Source: Thereva unica (lineage: Eukaryota; Arthropoda; Insecta; Diptera; Therevidae). From it: DNA of 64,000 bases. Below are positions 6,013-54,401 of this stretch, piece by piece. A program made the translations under genes and the position numbers. The notes beneath the pieces were generated by a model. That model was not told where the DNA came from. It saw nothing but the letters and a program-made list of their open reading frames with translations, and ran no database searches. The stretch is taken from assembly GCA_949987705.1 (NCBI GenBank), contig OX465281.1, positions 164,872,393 through 164,936,392 on the forward strand, written 5' to 3'. Positions within the stretch are counted from its first letter, which is position 1. Every line of letters starts with the position of its first letter.

Positions 6013-6380
6013 TGATGAGCTACTTCTTCTAGGCGATTTCAATTTACCCAATATCCAGTGGGTATATGTTGACGATGACGATAACTACCTTCCTGAAGGC
6101 AGCCTTAATTCTAAGGAATCGTGTTTTCTCGATTCCTTATTCTCACTTGGCTTGAGTCAAATGAGCGGTGTGACTAATGTATTAGGAAGGCAGTTGGATC
6201 TTATATTCTTTACTGACTCAGTCAACATGACTGTAAAACCCAGTGCAATAGTCATGTCCACTGTTGACGATTACCACCCTCCTATCTTGCTCAATTACTG
6301 CTTCAATTCAGTTAATACTCCTTGTCCGGAGGTGGTAACCTACTCATTTAACTTTAAAAAGGCTAACTTTAATGAGCTGT
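6013..6380 (+). pseudogene. LINE 2 endonuclease fragment (5' part, before LTR insertion)
   Basis: The frame reads LLLLGDFNLPNIQW, LDLIFF and a DDYHPP segment, matching the C-terminal half of an apurinic-type (EEP) LINE endonuclease. It begins directly after the A-rich tail of LINE 1, so LINE 2 is 5' truncated. The frame stops at the LTR element inserted at 6381 and resumes in the same frame at 12648 once one CTGT copy is discounted, so the two pieces are one element. Confidence 0.85.
6377..6380. repeat. 4-bp target-site duplication (left), CTGT
   Basis: CTGT precedes the left LTR and is repeated at 12644-12647 after the right LTR. Removing the element and one copy restores the LINE 2 reading frame. 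Confidence 0.85.
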
Positions 6381-7995
6381 TGTAACGGTCGGAATTATCA
6401 TTTATTTGAGTTGGGAAATTTATTTTGGGAATCACCTTGTAAAGGGAAATTTTGGAAAAATCACTGTGCGGAATCAGGAAAATTTTAAAAAAGATAGGCG
6501 AGGAAAAAAATAATAATAGAAAGGAGTTCTGTTTTGAAAACGAAAAAAAAAAAAACAGTTGGAATTTAGACGGCTGGCTGAATTTTCTGAGGGGAAAAAT
6601 ATAAAATATAAAAAAAAAATCAGTTTTTTTAAGAATATCTTTGGCTGGAAGACCAATACCTCCAGTATCCAGTCCATTGGAGGACAAAAACTACATTTTT
6701 GCTTCAAGTCAGCATTAATCAGGAATAGTTCGGTGCTGTGAAGCCGATGCGGTAATCCAAGCAAGTTTAGGCACCCCATTTGTAAAGGAGTTTGGAGAGG
6801 TACCGAAGCGGATACTACCACTACCAACAAAACTTGGTTCGTTTGGCCCATAGTTGAGGGAGCAGGATACGAAGTTTTTGGTGTTATTTTTGACGAAATT
6901 TGGTCAAGTCCCGGTGGTGTTAATACGCTTCGTTTGTCCGTCACCAAAAGTGTATGAAAAAACGAGACAACCGTGAAGAGAACTGGCGGAAGGCATTGGA
7001 GAGAAGGTGTATGGCGATACAGGCGTAAAATCAGAAGACTAACAGGCGAAAGTTATATAAAATTGCTTGAATTTGGGTTAGATAGTTGCCGGGAACTTAG
7101 AGGATAGGGATCGAGCTGCAGACCTTAGTATCTGGAGAGCGTCAGGTAATTAAGCCATAATCATAGTGCATCCACACCAGCTGGATCAGAAAAATACACA
7201 CGAAAAACAACAAAAAATTTCCACTATATAAAATTACAAAAAATTTTCTTTTTATTGCTTTAATTTTAAAAACACACAGAAAAATTTATTCATAAAATCT
7301 TAATTATAATAGTAGTTATTAATACCGTTGTAATATTTTTTTATAATTATTGGTGAATTTGTGTTGCTCCGTGTCGGATATTTGTTGTTCTTAATTGGTT
7401 CCGAGAAAGTGTTTTCTACTAATTGATTTCTTTGGATTGTAATCATTTGTACAAAGCGAGGGGTATTGGCCAATGCTGCGCGCTTTATGGTTATCTTGCC
7501 GACTCATGTGCACGTAATTCGTAGGTTGTTTTGATTTGTATTCGTTTGTATTCGTTCACGGTCAGTATTTGATTCATCAAATTGTGATTGTTAATGCTCC
7601 CATGTAATGTTTGGGATGATATTGTATTAGAGGATTATATTTATTAAAATGACCATGCATTAAATTTGTTTCTTGTGGAGTGGGTGAGGTAGGGGGTCGT
7701 TCTTTTTCAGGGTGATGCGGCTCAGGCGATGACGGGAGGATGATGGACGGAGGTCAAAATTGCACTGGCCCAGGTAAGTGGTGAACCAACCGCGGTAAGC
7801 CCCGGCCACACACCCCACGACCCCTCCGGCGAGCTAGACAACTCCGTGTGGCCGGCGTAGGAGTTCCGGATTTTCTTTTCATTTCTTATGTATGGTGTTG
7901 GCTCCTTGGCCATGCTCTTCCGGGCTTGTGGCTAAGGGGGTAACACCTCGCATAAGTGGCGCCCACTATTTATATCGCGCCATTATGCTGGTACA
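6381..7995 (+). repeat. 5' LTR (1615 bp)
   Basis: Starts TGTAACGGTCGG and ends ATGCTGGTACA. It matches 11034-12643 nearly base for base. On the minus strand it has ORFs of 157 (6474-6947) and 63 codons (7722-7913), both also present in the other LTR; these could be chance. I did not identify a definite TATA box or poly(A) site. Confidence 0.9.
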
Positions 7996-7999
7996 TAAA

Positions 8000-8012
8000 T
8001 GGCGCCCAACGT
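8000..8012 (+). other. Primer-binding site, tRNA-Lys type
   Basis: TGGCGCCCAACGT lies four bases after the LTR end and is complementary to the 3' end (including CCA) of insect tRNA-Lys(CTT) as I know it. Minus-strand DNA synthesis would start here. Confidence 0.75.
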
Positions 8013-8301
8013 AGCTTTTAAAGCCCGTTGACTGTCCTATACGGACCTTGAAGTTTAAATTTTTTTTGGTTTAGTACCACTTGTGCCTTCACGGACAACA
8101 TTTGATTTTTTGTTTATGGTTCACCACTTTTACCCAGCGCTCGCTGTGGGCTAAGGTAGTACCGCGAGGCCTTAGCCTTTGTCTGTTTTGCCGAATTTTT
8201 TTTTCAGCGCTTGTCCAAATTCTAGGTGAATTTTTATTTGTCTTCGCTTTTAGGCCTACCCGTTCACTTACGCGGTAACTTCTTCGTTTTGGAGTAGCTT
8301 C

Positions 8302-8375
8302 GAACCATGCTGACCTGCACGGCTTGCTAACAAGCGGTGTTCGCTTGGCTATGCGTGCAGGTGTAGTAGTGGTTC
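8302..8375 (+). promoter_or_regulatory. Structured leader RNA, domain I
   Basis: Nested pairings: GAACCA (8302-8307) with TGGTTC (8370-8375), then ACCTGCACG (8313-8321) with CGTGCAGGT (8354-8362). Inside are two mutually exclusive hairpins, GCTTG-CTAA-CAAGC (8322-8335) and CAAGCG-GTGTT-CGCTTG (8331-8347). This is far more perfect pairing than expected by chance in 74 bases. The role (packaging, dimerisation or translation control) is inference. Confidence 0.6.
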
Positions 8376-8456
8376 ATCCCTGTCCTGCTTCTAGGGTCGG
8401 CGACTCTGGTATCAGGCGTGATACCGCCTGCCACTGCGTCGGTCCGTGAACAGGAT
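8376..8456 (+). promoter_or_regulatory. Structured leader RNA, domain II
   Basis: Inner hairpin CAGGCG (8413-8418) - TGATAC - CGCCTG (8425-8430), with an alternative stem GGTATCA (8408-8414) / TGATACC (8419-8425). An outer stem is possible between ATCCCTGT (8376-8383) and ACAGGAT (8450-8456) with one bulged C. The 30-base core repeats in domain III. Confidence 0.6.
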
Positions 8457-8490
8457 CTTCTTTTAATTTTCCTGGTGGAAGGTGAAGTTG

Positions 8491-8554
8491 GTACAAGGGC
8501 TTAACCGTCTTTGGTAACAGGCGTGTTAACGCCTGCCACTGCGCCCCTTGTTCC
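8491..8554 (+). promoter_or_regulatory. Structured leader RNA, domain III
   Basis: Inner hairpin CAGGCG (8518-8523) - TGTTAA - CGCCTG (8530-8535) is closed by ACAAGGG (8493-8499) / CCCTTGT (8545-8551). The core is a second copy of domain II, with the same CGCCTGCCACTGCG 3' flank. Relative to domain II, a T-A pair of the alternative stem becomes A-T, while the outer stems have unrelated sequences. That pattern suggests conserved RNA structure. Confidence 0.6.
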
Positions 8555-8821
8555 TTCTGAAGGTCTATTCAGATTATTAAATTCTATTTTTTTGTTTTGT
8601 CCTGAATCGTTTTTTTTCGTCTGTTCCTCCCAACTGATTGATTTTCCGAAAGGTAGCTCAGTTGTGGTTGAACAGCGGATTCCCCAAATTTTTTTTATTT
8701 TTTGAAGAAGTTTCCTTTCCTTTCGTGGCGATGCGATTTTGAGTTCCGTTTCCGTCCTTCTTTCGGGTCGACCTGAAGCTGGGTCGGCGACCTGGATGAC
8801 ACTTGGTGATGACTATGCTTC

Positions 8822-8895
8822 ATGGTTTTCACCAACTGGCATTGAGGCCATCGACATGCGGGAGCCCTGGGGGGATTATCGTCTGCCTCAACCAT
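8822..8895 (+). promoter_or_regulatory. Further paired leader segment
   Basis: TTGAGGC (8842-8848) pairs with GCCTCAA (8885-8891), and ATGGT (8822-8826) with ACCAT (8891-8895), the last base being shared between the two options. Weaker case than domains I-III. The remainder of 8560-9449 shows no clear ORF; a T-run lies at about 9319-9339. Confidence 0.4.
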
Positions 8896-9449
8896 TCCAC
8901 ACTTAGATTGAATTAAAGCTAATCACTCACTCTTATACACTAATATATATAGACATTAATACACTTTGATTGTTTTATCACTACACACTAATCGGTGTTG
9001 ATTTTGATTCTTTGAGGTACACACAATAGTAATAATATCTATTGGATTTGTTAATAACACCTTGTTGTTACTCTACTTGTAGCTGGGTTTTTTTTGGGAG
9101 GGGTCCTCAATACAGTATCTGATCTTGTGAATTGTGATCATTTGTTGCGACCTTTCGCTAATGGTTTTGTTTTGATTATGCCAGAGGTGAAGTTTCTTCC
9201 AAGCTCAATCGTACCGAAAATGTTAGGTTGAAGTTGTTTTGAATTGACATCATCAGTTATTTATACGACATTAATTATTTACTGCCTCTAGATCAAGGAT
9301 TTGACGATTATTTGTAATTTTTTTTTTTTTTTTTTTTTTCGACTTTTGCTTGGAAATTAAATAACATATATCCTGGAAGATATAAACGCATTAGTGTAAT
9401 CTAGCTTTTATTTCGTTGGTATATTCAAGTTGATTTATAGTGATCAAAT

Positions 9450-10241
9450 ATGAAGGAAACCAGTGGTCATACTTATTATGGGTTACCCATAATACAGAAA
9501 GTATTACGTCGGCCACATTTCTTGTCCTCACTATCCCCGCTCGCGAAGGAGTTTGTTCCAAAAGGTAGGTACCATTCTGTAGTGAATGGTTCTTATACGG
9601 TTCCTAAGGTAGAACCGAGTCCAAAGCCACCAATGACGGTAATCTGGGAGGCAACACCCGACGAAAACCTGGCAATGGTGTACGCTGTGAATATAGTCAA
9701 TCGGTTATATGTTTATCCGGGACTCTTCGATACTGGGGCTTCTCGAGCGTTAACTTACTTGGCGTGTTTCAAGAATAATCCTATTGTAATAAGTCACCTC
9801 ATCGAAATTATTTTTTTCAAATCTATCTCCGAAACTAAATTCAGTATTATGGGATCGAAACTGTACAGTCTACTGGACTCGTTATATGCGAGGAAGGACA
9901 ATCTGTTTAGGAAATTGTTTAGGCTCCTTCTGGCGTATTATTGTGAGGAACATACTGAATGCCGTATCTCAGGAGTTCACCCGCAAAGTGGGATACTGGT
10001 ATTCTTGTCGGAGTTATATTGGAAGTTGTCGAAGAGCGGAGAGCTGAGGAAAGAGATGGCGCATAGTATTGTGGTTACCATGAACCGGTTACTTCGAGAA
10101 CCAACCCCTGGAAATGTAGAAGGCGTTAGGCATGCCTTGAAATTAACAGGTCCAATTTTAGTCATGTATTGTCCGGCAGATCTACGTGCGCTACGATGTA
10201 GAGTAGCAAAATTACTGCCGCATACCTCTTGTCTCGGTTAA
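9450..10241 (+). CDS. PAIP1-like protein (PAM2 motif + MIF4G-type domain)
   Basis: An uninterrupted 263-codon ORF. Residues 27-37 (SLSPLAKEFVP) fit the PAM2 consensus L-N-x-x-A-x-E-F-x-P, which binds the MLLE domain of poly(A)-binding protein. Residues about 70-235 resemble the MIF4G domain of PABP-interacting protein 1: a YPGLFDT segment, then FSIMGSKL, LFRKLFRLLL, GILVFLSELYWKL and HALKLTGPIL in the family's order and spacing. PAIP1 proteins bridge PABP and eIF4A/eIF3 to stimulate cap-dependent translation in the cytoplasm; by inference this protein could promote translation, or PABP-mediated handling, of the element's own RNA. It lies alone in the LTR interior with no introns, consistent with capture of a host cDNA. 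The C-terminal acidic PABP-binding segment of host PAIP1 seems missing. The first ATG was used. The residual risk is that it is a generic MIF4G/HEAT protein. Confidence 0.7.
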   Translation: MKETSGHTYYGLPIIQKVLRRPHFLSSLSPLAKEFVPKGRYHSVVNGSYTVPKVEPSPKPPMTVIWEATPDENLAMVYAVNIVNRLYVYPGLFDTGASRALTYLACFKNNPIVISHLIEIIFFKSISETKFSIMGSKLYSLLDSLYARKDNLFRKLFRLLLAYYCEEHTECRISGVHPQSGILVFLSELYWKLSKSGELRKEMAHSIVVTMNRLLREPTPGNVEGVRHALKLTGPILVMYCPADLRALRCRVAKLLPHTSCLG

Positions 10242-10390: not shown

Positions 10391-10903
10391 TTGCACAATG
10401 AATTCAAATATGTGTTATGTTTTTCTGAAAGGATCATGGTAGTTCAACTTCTTATTGATGGGCGACTGACTCTTCCGGTTGTTGCTTTACGTTCATTTAT
10501 GCTATCCCAGATCAACTCACGGAGGCATGGTCACCTAGGGGGGTGTTTCTATTTCAATTTTTGGGTCAGTCTGGAGAAGTTCTCTCAGCAGCCTGTTTTG
10601 CTGTCGTTCCACCGGGGGGGAGTCAAAGGCTATGTGGTATTGCGGGAGACTGGCCCGATGGAGCGAAAGCAAACTGAGTTTGTATGTAAATGTTTGGAGA
10701 CTTGTGGATGTCCGTCGGGGGACAATGTGGTATTGTCTTCCGCCGGTTATTCGCAACTCCAAATATTTCCCCGGGAGATTTTCCATACTGGCCATCGCCA
10801 TTACGATTGCAATTATGGGCCTAAATTACAGTTAGCTTTTCATCCGTTTTTTTTGTTACCAGGCAGTTCAGGTAGCCCGGCTAGCTCAGTCACTAGAGCA
10901 TGA
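10391..10903 (+). CDS. Hypothetical 170-codon ORF in LTR element
   Basis: An open frame downstream of the PAIP1-like ORF. I recognise no family. It contains a CKCLETCGC cluster and a basic middle, and has no clear signal or membrane segment. Its last codons run into the tRNA-like sequence at 10875, which argues that part of the frame is fortuitous. It may be a real second protein, or chance in a 3' non-coding region. Confidence 0.25.
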   Translation: MHNEFKYVLCFSERIMVVQLLIDGRLTLPVVALRSFMLSQINSRRHGHLGGCFYFNFWVSLEKFSQQPVLLSFHRGGVKGYVVLRETGPMERKQTEFVCKCLETCGCPSGDNVVLSSAGYSQLQIFPREIFHTGHRHYDCNYGPKLQLAFHPFFLLPGSSGSPASSVTRA

Positions 10904-10947
10904 GACTCCTATTCTCAGGTCGTGAGTCGAGTCCCACATTGGCGCCA
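10875..10947 (+). pseudogene. tRNA-Lys-like sequence with encoded CCA
   Basis: GCCCGGCTAGCTCAGTC, GAGCATGAGACT and TCGAGTCCCAC follow insect tRNA-Lys(CTT) closely. The anticodon loop reads CTCCTAT, so the triplet is CCT, not CTT. The T arm is short by one or two bases, and the 3' end is GGCGCCA with the CCA written in DNA. It is not a functional tRNA gene. Encoded CCA implies reverse transcription of a mature tRNA. Its 3' end is complementary to the start of the element's own primer site. Confidence 0.75.
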
Positions 10948-11033
10948 AAAATGTTAGGTCTTTTGGTATAAAAACCGTCCGTTTTTTTCGGCTCCTCACT
11001 GCCTCGCGAGTCGGCCTTGTGGACCCGAGGGTA

Positions 11034-12643
11034 TGTAACGGTCGGAATTATCATTTATTTGAGTTGGGAAATTTATTTTGGGAATCACCTTGTAAAGGGA
11101 AATTTTGGAAAAATCACTGTGCGGAATCAGGAAAATTTTAAAAAAGATAGGCGAGGAAAAAAATAATAATAGAAAGGAGTTCTGTTTTGAAAACGAAAAA
11201 AAAACAGTTGGAATTTAGACGGCTGGCTGAATTTTCTGAGGGGAAAAATATAAAATATAAAAAAAAATCAGTTTTTTTAAGAATATCTTTGGCTGGAAGA
11301 CCAATACCTCCAGTATCCAGTCCATTGGAGGACAAAAACTACATTTTTGCTTCAAGTCAGCATTAATCAGGAATAGTTCGGTGCTGTGAAGCCGATGCGG
11401 TAATCCAAGCAAGTTTAGGCACCCCATTTGTAAAGGAGTTTGGAGAGGTACCGAAGCGGATACTACCACTACCAACAAAACTTGGTTCGTTTGGCCCATA
11501 GTTGAGGGAGCAGGATACGAAGTTTTTGGTGTTATTTTTGACGAAATTTGGTCAAGTCCCGGTGGTGTTAATACGCTTCGTTTGTCCGTCACCAAAAGTG
11601 TAGGAAAAAACGTGACAACCGTGAAGAGAACTGGCGGAAGGCATTGGAGAGAAGGTGTATGGCGATACAGGCGTAAAATCAGAAGACTAACAGGCGAAAG
11701 TTATATAAAATTGCTTGAATTTGGGTTAGATAGTTGCCGGGAACTTAGAGGATAGGGATCGAGCTGCAGACCTTAGTATCTGGAGAGCGTCAGGTAATTA
11801 AGCCATAATCATAGTGCATCCACACCAGCTGGATCAGAAAAATACACACGAAAAACAACAAAAAATTTCCACTAAATAAAATTACAAAAAATTTTCTTTT
11901 TATTGCTTTAATTTTAAAAACACACAGAAAAATTTATTCATAAAATCTTAATTATAATAGTAGTTATTAATACCGTTGTAATATTTTTTTATAATTATTG
12001 GTGAATTTGTGTTGCTCCGTGTCGGATATTTGTTGTTCTTAATTGGTTCCGAGAAAGTGTTTTCTACTAATTGATTTCTTTGGATTGTAATCATTTGTAC
12101 AAAGCGAGGGGTATTGGCCAATGCTGCGCGCTTTATGGTTATCTTGCCGACTCATGTGCACGTAATTCGCAGGTTGTTTTGATTTGTATTCGTTTGTATT
12201 CGTTCACGGTCAGTATTTGATTCATCAAATTGTGATTGTTAATGCTCCCATGTAATGTTTGGGATGATATTGTATTAGAGGATTATATTTATTAAAATGA
12301 CCATGCATTAAATTTGTTTCTTGTGGAGTGGGTGAGGTAGGGGGTCGTTCTTTTTCAGGGTGATGCGGCTCAGGCGATGACGGGAGGATGATGGACGGAG
12401 GTCAAAATTGCACTGGCCCAGGTAAGTGGTGAACCAACCGCGGTAAGCCCCGGCCACACACCCCACGACCCCTCCGGCGAGCTAGACAACTCCGTGTGGC
12501 CGGCGTAGGAGTTCCGGATTTTCTTTTCATTTCTTATGTATGGTGTTGGCTCCTTGGCCATGCTCTTCCGGGCTTGTGGCTAAGGGGGTAACACCTCGCA
12601 TAAGTGGCGCCCACTATTTATATCGCGCCATTATGCTGGTACA
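11034..12643 (+). repeat. 3' LTR (1610 bp)
   Basis: Near-identical to 6381-7995. Differences seen include ATGAAAAAACGAG versus AGGAAAAAACGTG, TATATAAAA versus TAAATAAAA, CGTAGG versus CGCAGG, and A-run lengths. Followed by the CTGT duplication. Confidence 0.9.
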
Positions 12644-13899
12644 CTGTCATCTAAACTTGCCATGGTTGATTTCAACAACTTACTTTCCGCAAACGAGTTG
12701 GATTTCGATGTAGCACGGTTTTATGGCGTACTATACGAAGCCCTCGTTTCTTGCGTTCCCTATCTTTCGGATCTGGAGACTTTCAGCCTGACGACAATAA
12801 TTTTCGTCACATTATTCCTAACCGAGAGGCTCATTTTTTACCTCTCTCAATTACCATTGCCGATATCGTGAAACATATTGACGATCTTCCATTTGACTTT
12901 ACTTTTGACCCCGACGGTATTCCTCCTGCTGTCCTTAAGGCCTGTGTGGAGGTTCTCCAGCCTCCACTGAAAATCCTTTTTCTAAAATCCCTGGATAAAG
13001 GGTACTTCCCCACTCTTTGGAAGAATTCGTTCATAATTCCTATTCACAAAAGTGGTTGCAAGAGCGAAATATCGAATTATAGGCCAGTTGCTAAGTTGTC
13101 TGCTATACCGAAACTTTCTGAATCAATTTATCTATTCTACACTCGTTCATATCTGCAAGAGGCTGGTCTCCACGAATCACCATGGTTTTCTTGCAGCTCG
13201 TTCCACTACCACCAATCTTCTTGAGTTCGCTGCACATGCTGTTGAAGGCTTCGTTTCCGGTTGTCAAACTGATTGTGTTTACACGGATTTTAGTAAGGCA
13301 TTCGACCAGCTCTCCCATTACATTACTATTCTGAAATTAAGAATGTTAGGCTTTCCGCAAGACCTTCTAGTATGGTTCCAGTCTTACTTAACTGACCGGA
13401 CCTACCAAGTTCTTTTTCGTGGATCCAAATCAGTAACCATTGAAGCGACATCCGGTGTCCCTCAAGGAAGTCATCTTGGCCCTCTCCTCTTTATCTTATC
13501 AATTGATGACATTGTTCCCTTACTAAGATACTGTAGAATATTGATTTACGCTGATGACATCAAATTGTATCGTCACATAAAGAGTATGGAGGATTGCAAA
13601 CTTCTGCAGGTTGACCTCGACACCTTTTACTCTTGGTGTTCTAACAACAACCTGGTTCTTAATATTGGTAAATGCGAAGTCATGACTTTTAGTAGGAGAC
13701 GTGATCCTATAATTTTTAACTACACCTTTTCTGATGAGGGTATCCCTCGTGGTAATTTGGTTAAAGATCTCGGGATTACATTTGATAGTAAACTGGATTT
13801 CTCCACTCACATCAACTATATCACTTCCAGAGGTAGTTTAGTCTTGGGCTTTATAAAAAGGTGGTCCAAAGAATTTAATAACCCGTTGGTTACTAAACA

Positions 13900-48555: not shown

Positions 48556-48559
48556 CGCG
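48556..48559. repeat. 4-bp target duplication CGCG (left)
   Basis: CGCG precedes the left LTR and recurs at 53545-53548. It fits the YRYR preference of errantivirus-type integrases. Confidence 0.85.
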
Positions 48560-48863
48560 AGTTACATACTTAGAGTTGAAAAATGCAACAAATGCACAAT
48601 TTAATCAACCGGACGTATCCGATACATTAAAAATAAAGCCAAAAGAAAAACCATTAGCTTGGTAGATTATATTCCACACTGCATCCGATAAAACTGCTGA
48701 CTTAGGAAAAGATAAGAAAAGTAAAATGTAATTTTTGAATAAGGATAGTCAGTCTGTCGGAAATTATATTAGAGTTCGGTTTGTTCTATTAATAAAGTTA
48801 AATAAATTTGAAGTGAGCTTTTTATTTCTCTAATTGATCAATAATTATCCAAAATATATTACT
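48560..48863 (+). repeat. 5' LTR of errantivirus-like provirus
   Basis: 304 bp, identical by eye to 53241-53544. Contains AATAAAG at 48790-48796 as a possible poly(A) signal. Its first ~105 bases equal the env C-terminal codons found in the 3' LTR. Confidence 0.9.
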
Positions 48864-48882
48864 GGCGCAGTCGGTAGGATCC
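48863..48882 (+). other. Primer-binding site, tRNA-Ser type
   Basis: TGGCGCAGTCGGTAGGATCC starts at the last LTR base. This string is the usual tRNA-Ser primer site of gypsy/17.6-like errantiviruses. Confidence 0.85.
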
Positions 48883-49078
48883 AGTTAATTGGATCCAGTG
48901 ATACGAATTTATCGCAAAAATTTGTTTAATCAAAAGTGATTAAGTGTGGAAGGTGTGATACGAAGTAGTTTAATTTACATTTAATAAGCTACGAAGAAAC
49001 AACCACCAAAACACAGAAAGAAAAGTCATCCTGGAAAGAAGGCGACGACGTAATTTAACAGCAGATCAAAACAGAAGA

Positions 49079-50071
49079 ATGGCTCAAGGAGTGCAACAAA
49101 ACCAACCAAATATGATGGAGCAATGCTTAGCCCTATTAACCGAGATAGTGCACCGGCAGACTCAGCCACCATCGTTGAGAAGACGAATTGAAAAAGAAAT
49201 CAAATTTTTACCAGCCTTTGAGGGAAAACCTGGAAGTCTACCAACATTCATAAATGCAGTTGAACGAGTTTTAGCGGAGTATGGAGATCAAGCACCGCAA
49301 GTCTATACAGTGATCTACAATGAGAAGATTTTGGGTCCACCAAAAAATTATTTAGAAACGGCACCACCAACAACGTGGGAACAATGTAAAGCAAAGCTGA
49401 AGATTCACTATAAACCTAGCAAAGATCAAGGGAGGATTATGCAAGAAATTTCAACTTTAAAAGTAAGTTCAATCACTGATTTGTTAGATAAGCTTAGATT
49501 TTTAGTAGACGATATTTCAGAGTGTGGAATTTTCAGTGAACACCAAAATGAAATCGTTAATCATTTAAGTAGTGTTTTATCATTAAAAATAAAAGAGCTT
49601 ACTGCGGGAGCCCTAGCGGCGGAATTAAATGATAAATTTAGTTTAGAGCAAATGAGAATAATACTTAATAAATACGTTGGCCAAGATGAATATAATTTAA
49701 AATCTTATAAACAAAATTTTTATGTACGAGATGGACTAAAATTTAGACAAAATATACAGACGAAGATTAACCAAAACTGTGGACAGGACAAAAACATTTC
49801 AAGAAGAGACAATAATTATAATAATTCCTCAGGACAATATCGTAATCAAAATAATTATAATAATTCCTCGGGACAATATCGTAATAACTATAATAATTTT
49901 TCCGGACAATTCCGCAGAGATTTTAACCACAATGTACGTAATAACGGTAACAGTGCACAACAAAGAAATTCGCAACCAACTAATCTTAATATAAGTCAAC
50001 CGATGGATGTTGACAATATAAATGCTCAAAGTGATGTAAACGATACAAATAGAGAATTTTTTACCAATTAG
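49079..50071 (+). CDS. gag: Errantivirus-like Gag
   Basis: 330 codons, intact. The N-terminal half (KFLPAFEGKPGSLPTFINAV) fits the capsid-like Gag of gypsy-group elements. There is no zinc knuckle, as in errantiviruses. The C-terminus (about 245-330) is Asn/Gln/Tyr-rich with three imperfect repeats of NYNNSSGQYRN, likely RNA-binding and disordered. The first ATG after the leader was used. It overlaps the pol frame by 32 bases (50040-50071). Confidence 0.85.
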   Translation: MAQGVQQNQPNMMEQCLALLTEIVHRQTQPPSLRRRIEKEIKFLPAFEGKPGSLPTFINAVERVLAEYGDQAPQVYTVIYNEKILGPPKNYLETAPPTTWEQCKAKLKIHYKPSKDQGRIMQEISTLKVSSITDLLDKLRFLVDDISECGIFSEHQNEIVNHLSSVLSLKIKELTAGALAAELNDKFSLEQMRIILNKYVGQDEYNLKSYKQNFYVRDGLKFRQNIQTKINQNCGQDKNISRRDNNYNNSSGQYRNQNNYNNSSGQYRNNYNNFSGQFRRDFNHNVRNNGNSAQQRNSQPTNLNISQPMDVDNINAQSDVNDTNREFFTN

Positions 50072-51908
50072 CCTCGGAAAAAAAAAGATTTATATACCTA
50101 TAACTATAAATAACAAAAAATTTTGTGCTAAGATGGATACGGGTTCTACTGTTAGTTTATTGAATTCTAGGAAAGTACCAAGTTATATTTATGAATTATT
50201 AAAAGGAAGCGTCAAAATTAATACAATTGATGGGGAAGTTAATAAGGAGACTGAATTTGTAAAAACTCACTGTCCTATAGAATTCCAACAGCCGGTTAAT
50301 GCTCGAATGCGATGGGTTAAAATTAGCTTGGACAAACAATATGATTTTCTTGTAGGCATGGATTGGATAGAAAAGAACGTGAAAGGTATTGAGGTAGAGG
50401 ATAAAGAGATTGTTTTGAAAAATGGGGCAAGGGTTCCGTTTCTGAGTAGAATTGTGGAAGAAGAAGTAAATGTCCTGGAAGAAGAAGTAAATGTCCTGGA
50501 AGAAAGTGAATTAGGTAATATAAAATTGAATCATTTGAACGACAAAGAACAAAACAGTCCTCAAATAAACACCGATAATAGTAGTGAATCCAACATGGAC
50601 CTATCGAATTCGGTACATTCCAATGAGGAACAGTTATTAGATCATATTATGATTAAAGAAGGAATAGTCAACATATATAAAACGCAAATAATATTGACTT
50701 ACAGTCCTAGTAAAGAAGTAGAAACTAAACATAAGAGAACGATTATACAAATTAATCCACGAGTTGAGGAGGAAATTATTAATGAAATGTTAAAGAAATA
50801 TATAAAATCAGGTCGTATCGGGATATATTCTGAAGTACAAGATACAGATTACAATAAAGTCCAGCAATGCATTATTAAGTTATTTTCAGGAAATAAAAAT
50901 TTCAAATTCATTAAAGCTACAAAGAGAGCCAGAGAAATAGAAAACGAGGAGGATTGTCACAAACAAATTGCACTTTACCATACGAAGGAGTCGTTACACA
51001 GCGGGATTAACGAAACATATAGAACCTTAAAAGACAAAATTTATTACCCTAAATTACAAGAGCAAATACAAATCGTTATCAATAATTGTGAAAAATGTAA
51101 GGGAATCAAATACGATAGAAAGCCGATTAAACCAATTTTTCATTTAACGGAGACACCATGTAACAAGAACGATATTATCCACTTGGATATCTTTCACTAC
51201 AAGAAGCAATCATTTGTCACTATTATCGATAAGTTAACTAAATTTTCGGTGGGTTATTTGATAAACGATAGAAATTGGGCCAAGAAAATTGCAATATTAG
51301 AAGGGTATGTCGCTACTTTTGGTAAACCTAATAAGATTATCATGGATAATGAATTTAAATCTGAACAACTTAAGAAGTATATTCAAGAAAACGGAATAGA
51401 GGTCCATTGGACCAAGCCCAACAGCCATACCGGGAATGCGGATGTAGAAAGACTCCATTCCACACTAATAGAAAAATTGCAAGCTATTGAAGAAGAAATG
51501 ACCCTCGAGCAAAAAATGCAAAAGGCAATTGGTAATTATAATGATAGGTACCATACCACAATTGAAATGACTCCAAGGCAAGCAAATAATTTAACTAACA
51601 TTGATATACTAATAGATAAAATAAATAAAAAGAAAATCTGGAATATTAATAAGCTAAATAGAAATAGGGAACACTATGTGGAAACGAGACAAGAAGGTTT
51701 CATTAAAAATTATAAACGAGTTAGACATAAGGACGAACCGTATTTTAGAAAATATCAATTAAGGAATGTAAATCCAATTAATATTAAACGACCATCCAAA
51801 TTTTCAGGTCATAGGGCTAATCTTTCTTTGGCTGATAACGACAGTACAAGGAGCATTACAGGTACATCCTATTCAAGAAGAAATAGGATATGTCAAGATA
51901 AAAATTAA
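50040..51908 (+). CDS. pol: Pol with protease and integrase only
   Basis: The frame is open from 50040; the first ATG is 50133. Counting from that ATG: protease active site DTGS at 2-5; a duplicated EEEVNVL at about 109-122; a short low-complexity join at about 135-165 where RT and RNase H should be; integrase zinc finger H283-H289-C319-C322; catalytic D352, D405 and E439; and a basic C-terminus. Pol in this group is usually about 1000 residues, so some 400-450 are missing, without a stop. The frame is +1 (or -2) relative to gag, so expression needs frameshifting or reinitiation. Protease and integrase look competent. Confidence 0.85.
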   Translation, partial: TIQIENFLPISLGKKKIYIPITINNKKFCAKMDTGSTVSLLNSRKVPSYIYELLKGSVKINTIDGEVNKETEFVKTHCPIEFQQPVNARMRWVKISLDKQYDFLVGMDWIEKNVKGIEVEDKEIVLKNGARVPFLSRIVEEEVNVLEEEVNVLEESELGNIKLNHLNDKEQNSPQINTDNSSESNMDLSNSVHSNEEQLLDHIMIKEGIVNIYKTQIILTYSPSKEVETKHKRTIIQINPRVEEEIINEMLKKYIKSGRIGIYSEVQDTDYNKVQQCIIKLFSGNKNFKFIKATKRAREIENEEDCHKQIALYHTKESLHSGINETYRTLKDKIYYPKLQEQIQIVINNCEKCKGIKYDRKPIKPIFHLTETPCNKNDIIHLDIFHYKKQSFVTIIDKLTKFSVGYLINDRNWAKKIAILEGYVATFGKPNKIIMDNEFKSEQLKKYIQENGIEVHWTKPNSHTGNADVERLHSTLIEKLQAIEEEMTLEQKMQKAIGNYNDRYHTTIEMTPRQANNLTNIDILIDKINKKKIWNINKLNRNREHYVETRQEGFIKNYKRVRHKDEPYFRKYQLRNVNPINIKRPSKFSGHRANLSLADNDSTRSITGTSYSRRNRICQDKN

Positions 51909-53346
51909 ACAAGTGGAGATAGCCAATGAAACAGACACTATATTGCATCTAATAAACCCTCCAGAAATGGTAAATATTTTAAACACTTTAGAGCGTAATA
52001 TAGAATATTTAAGGACAGATGACAAAAAATCGCTGTATACCGAAATTAAAATAATCAAAAGTAAACTTAGATCAATACAAAATCCAGCTAGACAAAAGAG
52101 AGGACTAATTAATATAGTAGGTCAAAGTATGAATTGGTTATTTGGAACTATGGATGATAGCGATAGACAGGAAATAATAGAGCATTTAGCAGCCGTGGAA
52201 GCAAATAATCACAAAGCTATTCAAAATCTGAACGAACAGATTAAAATAAATGAACATTATAGTAAAGCATTATCCGATTTAAAAGTATTACTTGAAGACG
52301 ACCGACAGAAAATTTTAAAAGCACTTAATGACACTAACGAAACTCTACATGAATTAAATTACAAAGTTTTGTTTTTAGATCAGGAAACCAAGCTTAGATA
52401 TTTAGAAAATAAAGTAAATCAGATTCTAGACAATATAATGGCCACAAAACATAATATTTTCCACCCTAGTATGCTTACTTTGCAAGAATTGGATACTTAT
52501 CAAATAGATATTCATAAACTAAAACTCCTTAAAGCAGGCATTATGGAATATAAAAACCAATATTTAATATTCGCTATAAAAATTCCAAAATATTACATAT
52601 TAAAAGATGTACATTTAATTAAATCAATAACTAATTCGGAAAATTTTGAAATTAGAGAATCCGATGAACAAGTTATAGAAATAAATAATAAAATCTATCA
52701 CTATGATGGAGAAGTAGAAATAAAGGATTTAAAATTAAGCAATAACTGTGTTTTTCAAAATTCTTGTACATTAATATATAATAATGTTACTAGTGTAGAA
52801 GAGCTAGATGAAGAAACTATTTTAGTAAAAAATATGTACCAAGAAACACTATTACAAAATTGCGATAAAAGAAGCATTAAGTTAAATGGTAATTATTTAA
52901 TAAATTTTAATAATTGTACGATAGGCATAAGAAATCAAAAATTTTCGAACAAAAAAATAACATTCTTAGATAAGTATTACTATCCCTCTGCAATTAATAA
53001 TACTAAGTTCGCAAAACCAATAGATTTTGATGATATTGTACTAAATAAAATAAATAATATACAAGAAATTCAAGAAATTAAGTATCAAAAGAGAATGATG
53101 TATGGGACAAGTATAGGAACATTTATCGTATGGATAATCACTTTTGTAATTATAATTTCGTATGCATTGTGGAAGAATAAAAAGAACAAGATCAATATAA
53201 TAAATTTGAAGTCGGAGACTTCTGACCCAAACCGGGGAAGAGTTACATACTTAGAGTTGAAAAATGCAACAAATGCACAATTTAATCAACCGGACGTATC
53301 CGATACATTAAAAATAAAGCCAAAAGAAAAACCATTAGCTTGGTAG
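51772..53346 (+). CDS. env: Env-like (F-type) glycoprotein of errantivirus-like provirus
   Basis: Open from 51772 to the stop at 53346, overlapping the end of pol in another frame. No ATG lies in the N-terminal stretch. A hydrophobic signal-like segment (about 51808-51855) is preceded by TTTTCAG (51801-51807), a plausible splice acceptor, so the start codon is probably supplied by a spliced leader exon. A furin-type RQKR site precedes a fusion-type segment, and there is a membrane span near the C-terminus (TFIVWIITFVIII). The last ~35 codons are encoded inside the 3' LTR. The gene seems uninterrupted; function is not tested. Confidence 0.75.
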   Translation: MQLILNDHPNFQVIGLIFLWLITTVQGALQVHPIQEEIGYVKIKIKQVEIANETDTILHLINPPEMVNILNTLERNIEYLRTDDKKSLYTEIKIIKSKLRSIQNPARQKRGLINIVGQSMNWLFGTMDDSDRQEIIEHLAAVEANNHKAIQNLNEQIKINEHYSKALSDLKVLLEDDRQKILKALNDTNETLHELNYKVLFLDQETKLRYLENKVNQILDNIMATKHNIFHPSMLTLQELDTYQIDIHKLKLLKAGIMEYKNQYLIFAIKIPKYYILKDVHLIKSITNSENFEIRESDEQVIEINNKIYHYDGEVEIKDLKLSNNCVFQNSCTLIYNNVTSVEELDEETILVKNMYQETLLQNCDKRSIKLNGNYLINFNNCTIGIRNQKFSNKKITFLDKYYYPSAINNTKFAKPIDFDDIVLNKINNIQEIQEIKYQKRMMYGTSIGTFIVWIITFVIIISYALWKNKKNKINIINLKSETSDPNRGRVTYLELKNATNAQFNQPDVSDTLKIKPKEKPLAW

Positions 53347-53544
53347 ATTATATTCCACACTGCATCCGATAAAACTGCTGACTTAGGAAAAGATAAGAAA
53401 AGTAAAATGTAATTTTTGAATAAGGATAGTCAGTCTGTCGGAAATTATATTAGAGTTCGGTTTGTTCTATTAATAAAGTTAAATAAATTTGAAGTGAGCT
53501 TTTTATTTCTCTAATTGATCAATAATTATCCAAAATATATTACT
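53241..53544 (+). repeat. 3' LTR of errantivirus-like provirus
   Basis: 304 bp, identical by eye to the 5' LTR, preceded by a purine-rich ACCGGGGAAG tract (53231-53240) that can serve as the plus-strand primer. Followed by CGCG (53545-53548). Confidence 0.9.
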
Positions 53545-53548
53545 CGCG

Positions 53549-54401
53549 CTGCTACTCCGGTTAGGGCACCCACCTTCACCACCTGCTTTCCGTAGCATCG
53601 ATTAACTTGGTTCTTAAGCAAGTTAAATTGGAAGGTTTTGCCTGTACCTGCACCACCGGTTATGAATAGGTTCTCCCGCCGTTGGTCGCCATTTTGTTTA
53701 GCTTGTATGCTCATCGTGATGTAATTGAACAATTGTCTTTGGTCCATATTCATAGCCTGACGTGCTGACTCGAACTGTTCATTTGGCATGACTTGTTCTG
53801 GCATTACATCTTCGTTATAATCAATATTTGTTGACGCGTGTTCCTCTAGAATTTCGAACGCATGCACTTGATTGAAAGCAATCTCTAGCTGCCGGTCGCG
53901 CTCTCTATGTTGTTCCATGTGAATGCTGATTGCTTTCAACTGTTCTTCTCGGGCTAAGAAAGCGGTTCTTGCGTCATGAAACCCTTCTAACAATTCCGTC
54001 TCCGAGCGGTAAGGCGTGTATTGAAGTAATAAACTGTAATAGAAATTCTCAGGATCTGTCATAGCTACAAAATATGGTACTCTTACAGTTGCAGGTACAT
54101 TTCTCACAGCCATTTTAGAATTATCTGTCAATGTAATCAATTGTCTACGGGTTCTCGATGGTATTTCATTTTCTTCTTGATCAACGCTTTTTTCTGTCGC
54201 ATCTGGTCTTTTTTGGTAATAGGCTTCTAAGAGCATTGCAAATTCTGTTAAACTCATTCTTGAAAAGTCATAATTTGGGTGCTGCAACGGACGCTTCTCG
54301 TACCTTTCGAAGAGATTGCTACAGTATCCAGTTGCTTGTCCTCGCTCATCAAAACGCAACACTCTGTAGCGCTGCTCTGGCTTTCGGGTATTCAGGAACA
54401 C
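53549..54401 (-). pseudogene. Helitron helicase, N-terminal part with Walker A
   Basis: Minus strand: RYRVLRFDERGQATGYC and the linker, then NLFITGGAGTGKTFQFNLL (Walker A, GGAGTGKT) and VGALTGVAAR, where the provirus interrupts. The downstream half starts again at 48555. A frame break at about 54395 separates it from Rep. Confidence 0.9.

Follow-up and report, generated by a model that had tools for sequence, protein, structure and literature searches.

A 6,263-bp LTR retrotransposon of Thereva unica encodes a protein derived from PAIP1, a host translation factor that assists ribosomes in using RNAs with poly(A) tails, and the element is almost certainly, in both structure and ancestry, a member of an extensive group of non-autonomous LTR elements in the same genome. 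It lies in the window, by which is meant the whole 64-kb stretch of DNA that was analysed, and its PAIP1-like ORF spans positions 9450-10241 of the forward strand (263 codons; the encoded protein is referred to below as P0001). Judging from sequence comparisons, non-autonomous derivatives of a Ty3 element appear to have exchanged gag-pol for PAIP1. Together with the mechanism proposed below, this origin is the best explanation overall of what was found, and probably the correct one.

Architecture of the element

The characteristic features of a non-autonomous LTR retrotransposon are present, namely a pair of LTRs with TG...CA ends, a target-site duplication (TSD) and a primer binding site (PBS). 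The element is inserted in a LINE, the reading frame of which is continuous across the site when the two flanks are translated separately and read by eye. The individual features, numbered by position in the window, are as follows.

6377..6380, no strand: left TSD, CTGT (right copy at 12644-12647)
6381..7995, + strand: 5′ LTR, starting TGTAACGGTC and finishing GGTACA, as does the 3′ LTR; 99.44% identical to the 3′ LTR
7771..7779, + strand: putative 5′ splice donor CAG/GTAAGT within the LTR, found in 13 of 13 LTRs
8000..8011, + strand: PBS TGGCGCCCAACG, complementary to the 3′ end of tRNA-Lys
8012..9055, + strand: non-coding leader, common to the gag-pol Ty3 partner
9438..9440, + strand: putative acceptor-like TAG, 9 nt before the ORF start
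9450..10241, + strand: PAIP1-like ORF of 263 codons (PDB PAIP1 match, profile search, Pfam)
9525..9566, + strand: PAM2 motif, residues 26-39 (Pfam)
9681..10160, + strand: PAIP1 MIF4G-like domain, residues 78-237 (PDB match, profile, fold search)
10561..10796, + strand: 3′ UTR segment common to the Ty3 partner (77%)
10875..10947, + strand: tRNA-Lys-like sequence ending GCGCCA (Rfam tRNA over 10882-10937, 28.9 bits against a gathering score of 29; extent set by eye)
10989..11014, + strand: conserved hairpin-like CGGCTC...GAGTCGG (pairing by eye)
11034..12643, + strand: 3′ LTR, 99.44% identical to the 5′ LTR
12644..12647, no strand: right TSD, CTGT

The primer site TGGCGCCCAACG is what we take to be the tRNA-Lys type. 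Where a polypurine tract would be expected (11019-11033), there is a conserved GTGGACCCGAGGGTA and not a plain purine run. The tRNA-Lys-like segment at 10875-10947, located just 5′ of the 3′ LTR, resembles the primer tRNA itself, and it is conserved in the aligned PAIP1 elements (as a variant in L033-L035, where L0xx are locus labels in the source genome) as well as in the Ty3 partner. The leader also contains two similar hairpins, at 8408-8432 (GGTATCA..TGATACC) and 8513-8537 (GGTAACA..TGTTAAC), each followed by GCCTGCC and possibly forming pseudoknots.

Homology of the ORF to PAIP1

A chance origin of the 263-codon ORF is ruled out by shuffling of the element’s internal region, where none of 1000 shuffles gave an ATG ORF of at least 263 codons in six frames (the longest ORF averaged 88 codons, with a maximum of 188). 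A second ORF of 155 codons, at 10436-10903, was rejected as a further gene; it is probably a product of chance, since no ORF of at least 110 codons is listed at that place in L021, a 97% identical copy.

Residues 26-39 of P0001 form a PAM2 motif (Pfam E = 5.6e-4, with 19.9 bits falling slightly short of the cutoff of 20), and a single-sequence search of the PDB aligns its residues 78-237 with human PAIP1 (E = 2.3e-4). By itself, P0001 gives no match to Pfam MIF4G even at E ≤ 10. A profile built from nine element ORFs, with the host gene omitted, finds human PAIP1 at E = 1.4e-14, followed by eIF4G at 3.7e-4, and addition of the host-like gene L036 to the profile brings the PAIP1 match to 1.6e-15. 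Six of the nine element representatives, P0001 not among them, match Pfam MIF4G at E ≤ 0.001 (best 4.2e-11), and four match Pfam PAM2 at the same limit; with L036 included and a looser limit of E ≤ 1, the respective counts are 9 of 10 and 6 of 10. Across the nine representatives, 48 columns are invariant, with PAM2 and MIF4G positions included. The single-sequence structure model of P0001 is weak (pLDDT 55), and when it was compared to a library of 350,542 chains, both PAIP1 chains ranked first and second (E = 0.013 and 0.045), with no match below 0.001. The motif DTGAS (residues 94-98) was considered as a retroviral protease motif and set aside: the PAIP1 alignment passes through it, and its glycine is missing in nine of ten A1 alignment rows.

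The first-pass annotation, made from the letters of the window, had described this ORF as lying inside an LTR retrotransposon, and the LTR pair, TSD and PBS bear this out. Its coordinates, intact frame and PAM2 motif are likewise upheld, as is its proposal that the downstream segment follows the PAIP1 MIF4G domain, for which the nine-element profile (1.4e-14) and the six Pfam matches speak; MIF4G, without which by profile or structure that reading was to be given up, is found by profile. It had also called this the only long ORF of the element, which holds in the sense that it is the only conserved one, the 155-codon frame being a further, probably chance, ORF.

As in PAIP1, the element ORFs have PAM2 followed by the MIF4G/HEAT middle domain. 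They differ from PAIP1, which has an acidic PAM1-like C-terminus, in that this tail is absent from all fetched element ORFs (it is present in L036), and in that they sit in mobile elements as many diverging copies. Because of the missing tail, the ORF is termed PAIP1-derived and not a full PAIP1; from the alignments, the elements would carry the N-terminal and middle part of host PAIP1, i.e., PAM2 plus MIF4G. Homologues of P0001 were found neither in viral contigs nor in phages, and a protein search with P0001 had none at E ≤ 10 among 610 candidates, a result of low sensitivity that says little.

Copies in the genome

A search of the 910-Mb source genome with P0001 gave 206 matches (279 candidates, 145 scored). 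Among the 150 listed of these 206, nine have stops inside the aligned part, and at least 41 stop-free matches span residue 4 or lower to residue 240 or higher, a count that includes the window’s own row and leaves out the host row (L036). Many genomic copies therefore carry an intact ORF, contrary to the outcome that the first-pass annotation would have counted against its reading (other copies without the ORF, or with it broken everywhere). Identities to P0001 among the matches listed fall mainly in groups near 97, 92, 52, 47, 40 and 37%.

With 20 longer stretches and the window taken together, 4-bp TSDs occur in all 13 elements that are readable at both outer ends (the window, L021, L022, L024-L027, L029-L031 and L037-L039); L023, L028, L032-L035 and L040, which are tandem, disrupted or cut off, were left out of this count, along with L036, since the latter is not an element. 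In the 11 elements compared over their whole length, the two LTRs are 99.0-99.9% identical, and those of L025 match in two blocks, at 99.6 and 100%.

Most of the fetched families still have both PAM2 and MIF4G, and EFV is kept in 27 of the 30 element proteins for which the N-terminus was read. In L029-L031, EVVL replaces EFVP with loss of the PAM2 phenylalanine, and to judge from this change PAM2 is probably dead in this recently amplified subfamily (LTRs 99.7-99.9%). Other subfamilies of ~185-195 codons (L048, L051) have a truncated MIF4G, yet they have also been amplified.

Two arrangements of the ORF stand apart. At C4:58686964-58702764, four PAIP1 ORF copies of equal score are spaced exactly 5059 bp apart, forming a tandem array of LTR-internal units. 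In L049, the N-terminal half of PAIP1 runs on into an unrelated open frame of ~75 codons.

Host PAIP1 and its capture

When the source genome was searched with the MIF4G domain of human PAIP1, 91 matches at E ≤ 1 were obtained, the best of which (2.8e-7, at C2:155517069) is L036; the next-ranked matches, among those inspected, are mostly ORFs of the element family. The 409-codon ORF of L036 ends in an acidic C-terminus and contains PAM2 at 18.4 bits (cutoff 20) and MIF4G at 33.7 bits (cutoff 30.8), and exact LTR, PBS or 3′ end motifs are absent from the 9.9 kb around it. It is taken here as host PAIP1 or a retrogene of it.

One element, L035, retains 78 bp resembling the 5′ UTR of L036 (81%, E = 4.8e-11), and the remaining 11 elements examined match this stretch over no more than 12 bases. 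When human PAIP1 is included in a tree, L036 forms a polytomy with the element clades at the base, a topology compatible with one capture or with several; the window copy groups with L021 and L023 in a starred clade. The backbone shared by the elements favours a single capture.

A gag-pol partner of the Ty3 type

The first 411 bases of the leader, around the PBS, were used as a query and gave 920 candidates in the genome, of which 40 were scored, all at 96-100%. Eight of these 40 leader copies have a PAIP1 ORF within ~2 kb, one is an ambiguous case at ~5 kb, and at most 31 have none listed near; the figure of 31 is an upper bound, given that 56 of the 206 PAIP1 matches lie outside the listed 150. 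One of the 31, at C4:63307108 (L055/L056), was read in part and found to encode gag and pol, with an in-frame stop. Its domains in L055 are Ty3_capsid, a protease-like stretch, RVT_1, RNase H and an integrase zinc domain, and no PAIP1 ORF occurs in the two stretches read.

This Ty3 element and the PAIP1 elements have in common the leader with its PBS, part of the 3′ UTR, the tRNA-like segment, the 3′ end and the start of the LTR, and they differ in what lies between. The partner leader is 99% identical to that of the window, its 3′ end (tRNA-like segment plus LTR start) is 96% identical, and the 3′ UTR segment at 10561-10796 is 77% identical. Leader similarity stops at window position 9055, and in L039 it stops ~30 nt before the PAIP1 start. 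Searches by tblastn with partner gag and pol pieces found no remnants of these genes in eight element internals. The replacement of gag-pol by PAIP1 is thus drawn from the leader and 3′ end held in common with a gag-pol element, from the absence of a gag or pol remnant in those internals and from the absence of PAIP1 in the partner stretches read, the partner evidence being that of one copy.

Reshuffled modules

LTR cores have been reshuffled against leader and ORF. Between families, leaders are 81-91% identical, ORFs 54-73% (89% for L037/L039) and LTRs 51-68%. Between the window copy and L021, ORFs are 99%, leaders 95% and LTRs only 55% identical, each copy having its own matching LTR pair. 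LTRs of different families typically share approximately their first 130 and last 285-370 bases and have largely unrelated cores, with longer shared parts in some pairs. L022 is a hybrid, in which the 3′ LTR is 93% identical to that of the window over its whole length and similarity of the 5′ LTR is confined to its last ~370 bases (87%); AGTT is found on both flanks despite the two different LTRs. This hybrid, together with the discordant identities of LTR, leader and ORF, suggests that template switching or gene conversion among elements is behind the reshuffling. It is conceivable that L022, with its foreign 5′ LTR core, represents an LTR exchange caught in a single copy.

Expression and proposed mechanism

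The donor CAG/GTAAGT, present in 13 of 13 LTRs at 224-226 nt before the LTR end, is part of a conserved LTR stretch, so that its conservation is not independent evidence; an acceptor-like AG is found a few bases 5′ of the ORF in the element families listed. Both sites resemble splice signals and point to a spliced mRNA as the source of the ORF product. Depletion of upstream ATGs in the leader was considered as a sign of scanning and rejected, with no clear depletion in ten elements (10-16 upstream ATGs per element).

PAM2 is reported to bind the C-terminal domain of PABP, and PAM1 to bind RRM1/2 (PMC8167360). In the mechanism proposed here, gag and pol would be supplied in trans by the Ty3 partner. 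The ORF would be read from an mRNA in which splicing joins the LTR donor to the acceptor before the ATG, and the unspliced RNA with its leader would be the packaged form. The element protein would bind PABP via PAM2 and eIF4A/eIF3 via MIF4G, and in this way it could make its own encoding RNA more stable or better translated (in cis), and perhaps the partner RNA as well. Its likeliest role is to bring initiation factors to poly(A) RNA, with the RNA from which it is made as the target. The mechanism as a whole is advanced as a tentative but plausible proposal, and a strict function in linking PABP to initiation factors is weakened by the two amplified subfamilies with damaged PAM2 and truncated MIF4G. 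A wider and more speculative extension is that the captured PABP-binding factor, as the lineage’s only gene, serves as a cis-preferring translation booster, and that the families have diversified by template-switch swapping of LTR cores, leaders and PAIP1 variants in a PABP arms race with the host.

The chief rival to a translation-boosting role is a dominant-negative one, in which the tail-less protein competes with host PAIP1 or eIF4G, thereby lowering translation of host or element RNA and shifting element RNA from ribosomes to packaging. The absence of the host acidic tail from every fetched element ORF would fit this role, as would the different PABP parts bound by PAM1 and PAM2 (PMC8167360). 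However, PAM2 and MIF4G are both kept in most fetched families, and we regard a dominant-negative role as unlikely.

Less probable again is the possibility that the protein raises Gag-Pol output of the partner via the shared leader, such that the derivative feeds its own helper. The leader and 3′ end, at 96-99% identity to the gag-pol element, are consistent with such assistance in trans, but PAIP1 is not known to bind RNA in a leader-specific manner, and selection acting on single copies could hardly preserve a factor that diffuses freely.

Selection on the ORF

Rates of dN/dS (omega) were estimated by NG86 for 66 pairs, of which four were saturated; many between-family dS values exceed 1, and some pairs include L036. 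Synonymous change is in excess between families, and there are signs of purifying selection: omega is 0.15-0.57 where computable, at dS from 0.19 to above 1. For example, L024/L028 has a dS of 0.67, a dN of 0.24 and an omega of 0.36 (Fisher p = 6e-9), and L037/L039 has an omega of 0.57 (p = 0.013). Within subfamilies, values are 0.37 for L028/L029 (p = 0.026), 0.46 for L029/L032, 0.89 for L028/L032 and a non-significant 0.53 for L033/L035 (p = 0.11). In the window’s own subfamily, omega is 1.4-2.1 on 10-24 changes, showing no constraint, and the two window pairs tested are compatible with neutrality. A dN/dS test among copies, proposed in the first-pass annotation, hence gives signs of constraint between families and none among the window’s closest relatives. 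Were there several captures, some of the purifying selection seen between deep clades might go back to the host gene.

These data bear on whether the ORF is passive cargo, a processed transcript that was trapped between LTRs and has been hitchhiking since, intact by virtue of its youth. LTRs that are 99-100% identical in most fully compared copies, the omega above 1 in the window’s subfamily and the amplification of subfamilies with damaged PAM2 or truncated MIF4G all accord with this explanation. Even so, it is improbable: frames have stayed open between families across the dS and omega values given above, with significance in L024/L028 and L037/L039, whereas neutral simulation at half the L024-L028 distance left only 1 of 2000 ORFs stop-free, with ~8 stops expected. 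That the ORF is mainly a translated stretch shielding the RNA from decay, its sequence hardly mattering, would suit the conserved frame at large divergence (down to ~40% identity), but it is very improbable in light of the 48 invariant columns and the omega below 1 between families.

Relationship to known systems

Large retrotransposon derivatives (LARDs) and transduction of host genes by LTR elements are already known, and they likewise place host or non-coding DNA between LTRs, to be mobilized in trans by an autonomous element (PMC6431247). There the DNA consists of gene fragments or non-coding sequence, whereas the elements reported here carry just one ORF, which is of host origin and which between families shows signs of purifying selection. 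The Helenus TRIMs are also non-autonomous LTR elements with tRNA-like sequence, and in animals they have 4-bp TSDs; the tRNA-like part of Helenus (TRIMp3) is in the LTRs, in elements of up to 1263 bp, and here it is internal (10875-10947) to a 6.3-kb element (PMC10886601). The SUD of SARS-CoV provides a parallel in function, where expression of a parasite’s RNA is aided through PAIP1, with the difference that the virus binds host Paip1 and the element encodes a PAIP1-like protein of its own (PMC8167360). As far as titles and the beginnings of abstracts show, no retrotransposon with a PAIP1, PAM2 or MIF4G component has been published.

On the usual view, a non-autonomous element has no need to encode any protein. 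Here a group numbering hundreds of matches retains a captured host translation factor where gag-pol would be, and it shows signs of selection; this would mean that control over PABP and initiation factors can be a selfish advantage, and it suggests that a translation helper on board can assist the spread of mobile DNA. The group also makes selection on the protein of a non-autonomous element tractable to study, and its diverged PAIP1 variants form a natural series in which the importance of individual contacts can be tested.

Finally, another LTR element is found in the window, at 48559-53549. No reverse transcriptase match was seen in the three of its ORFs that were scanned, and it possesses 310-bp LTRs (99.7%) together with gag-like, protease-integrase and Baculo_F-like ORFs.
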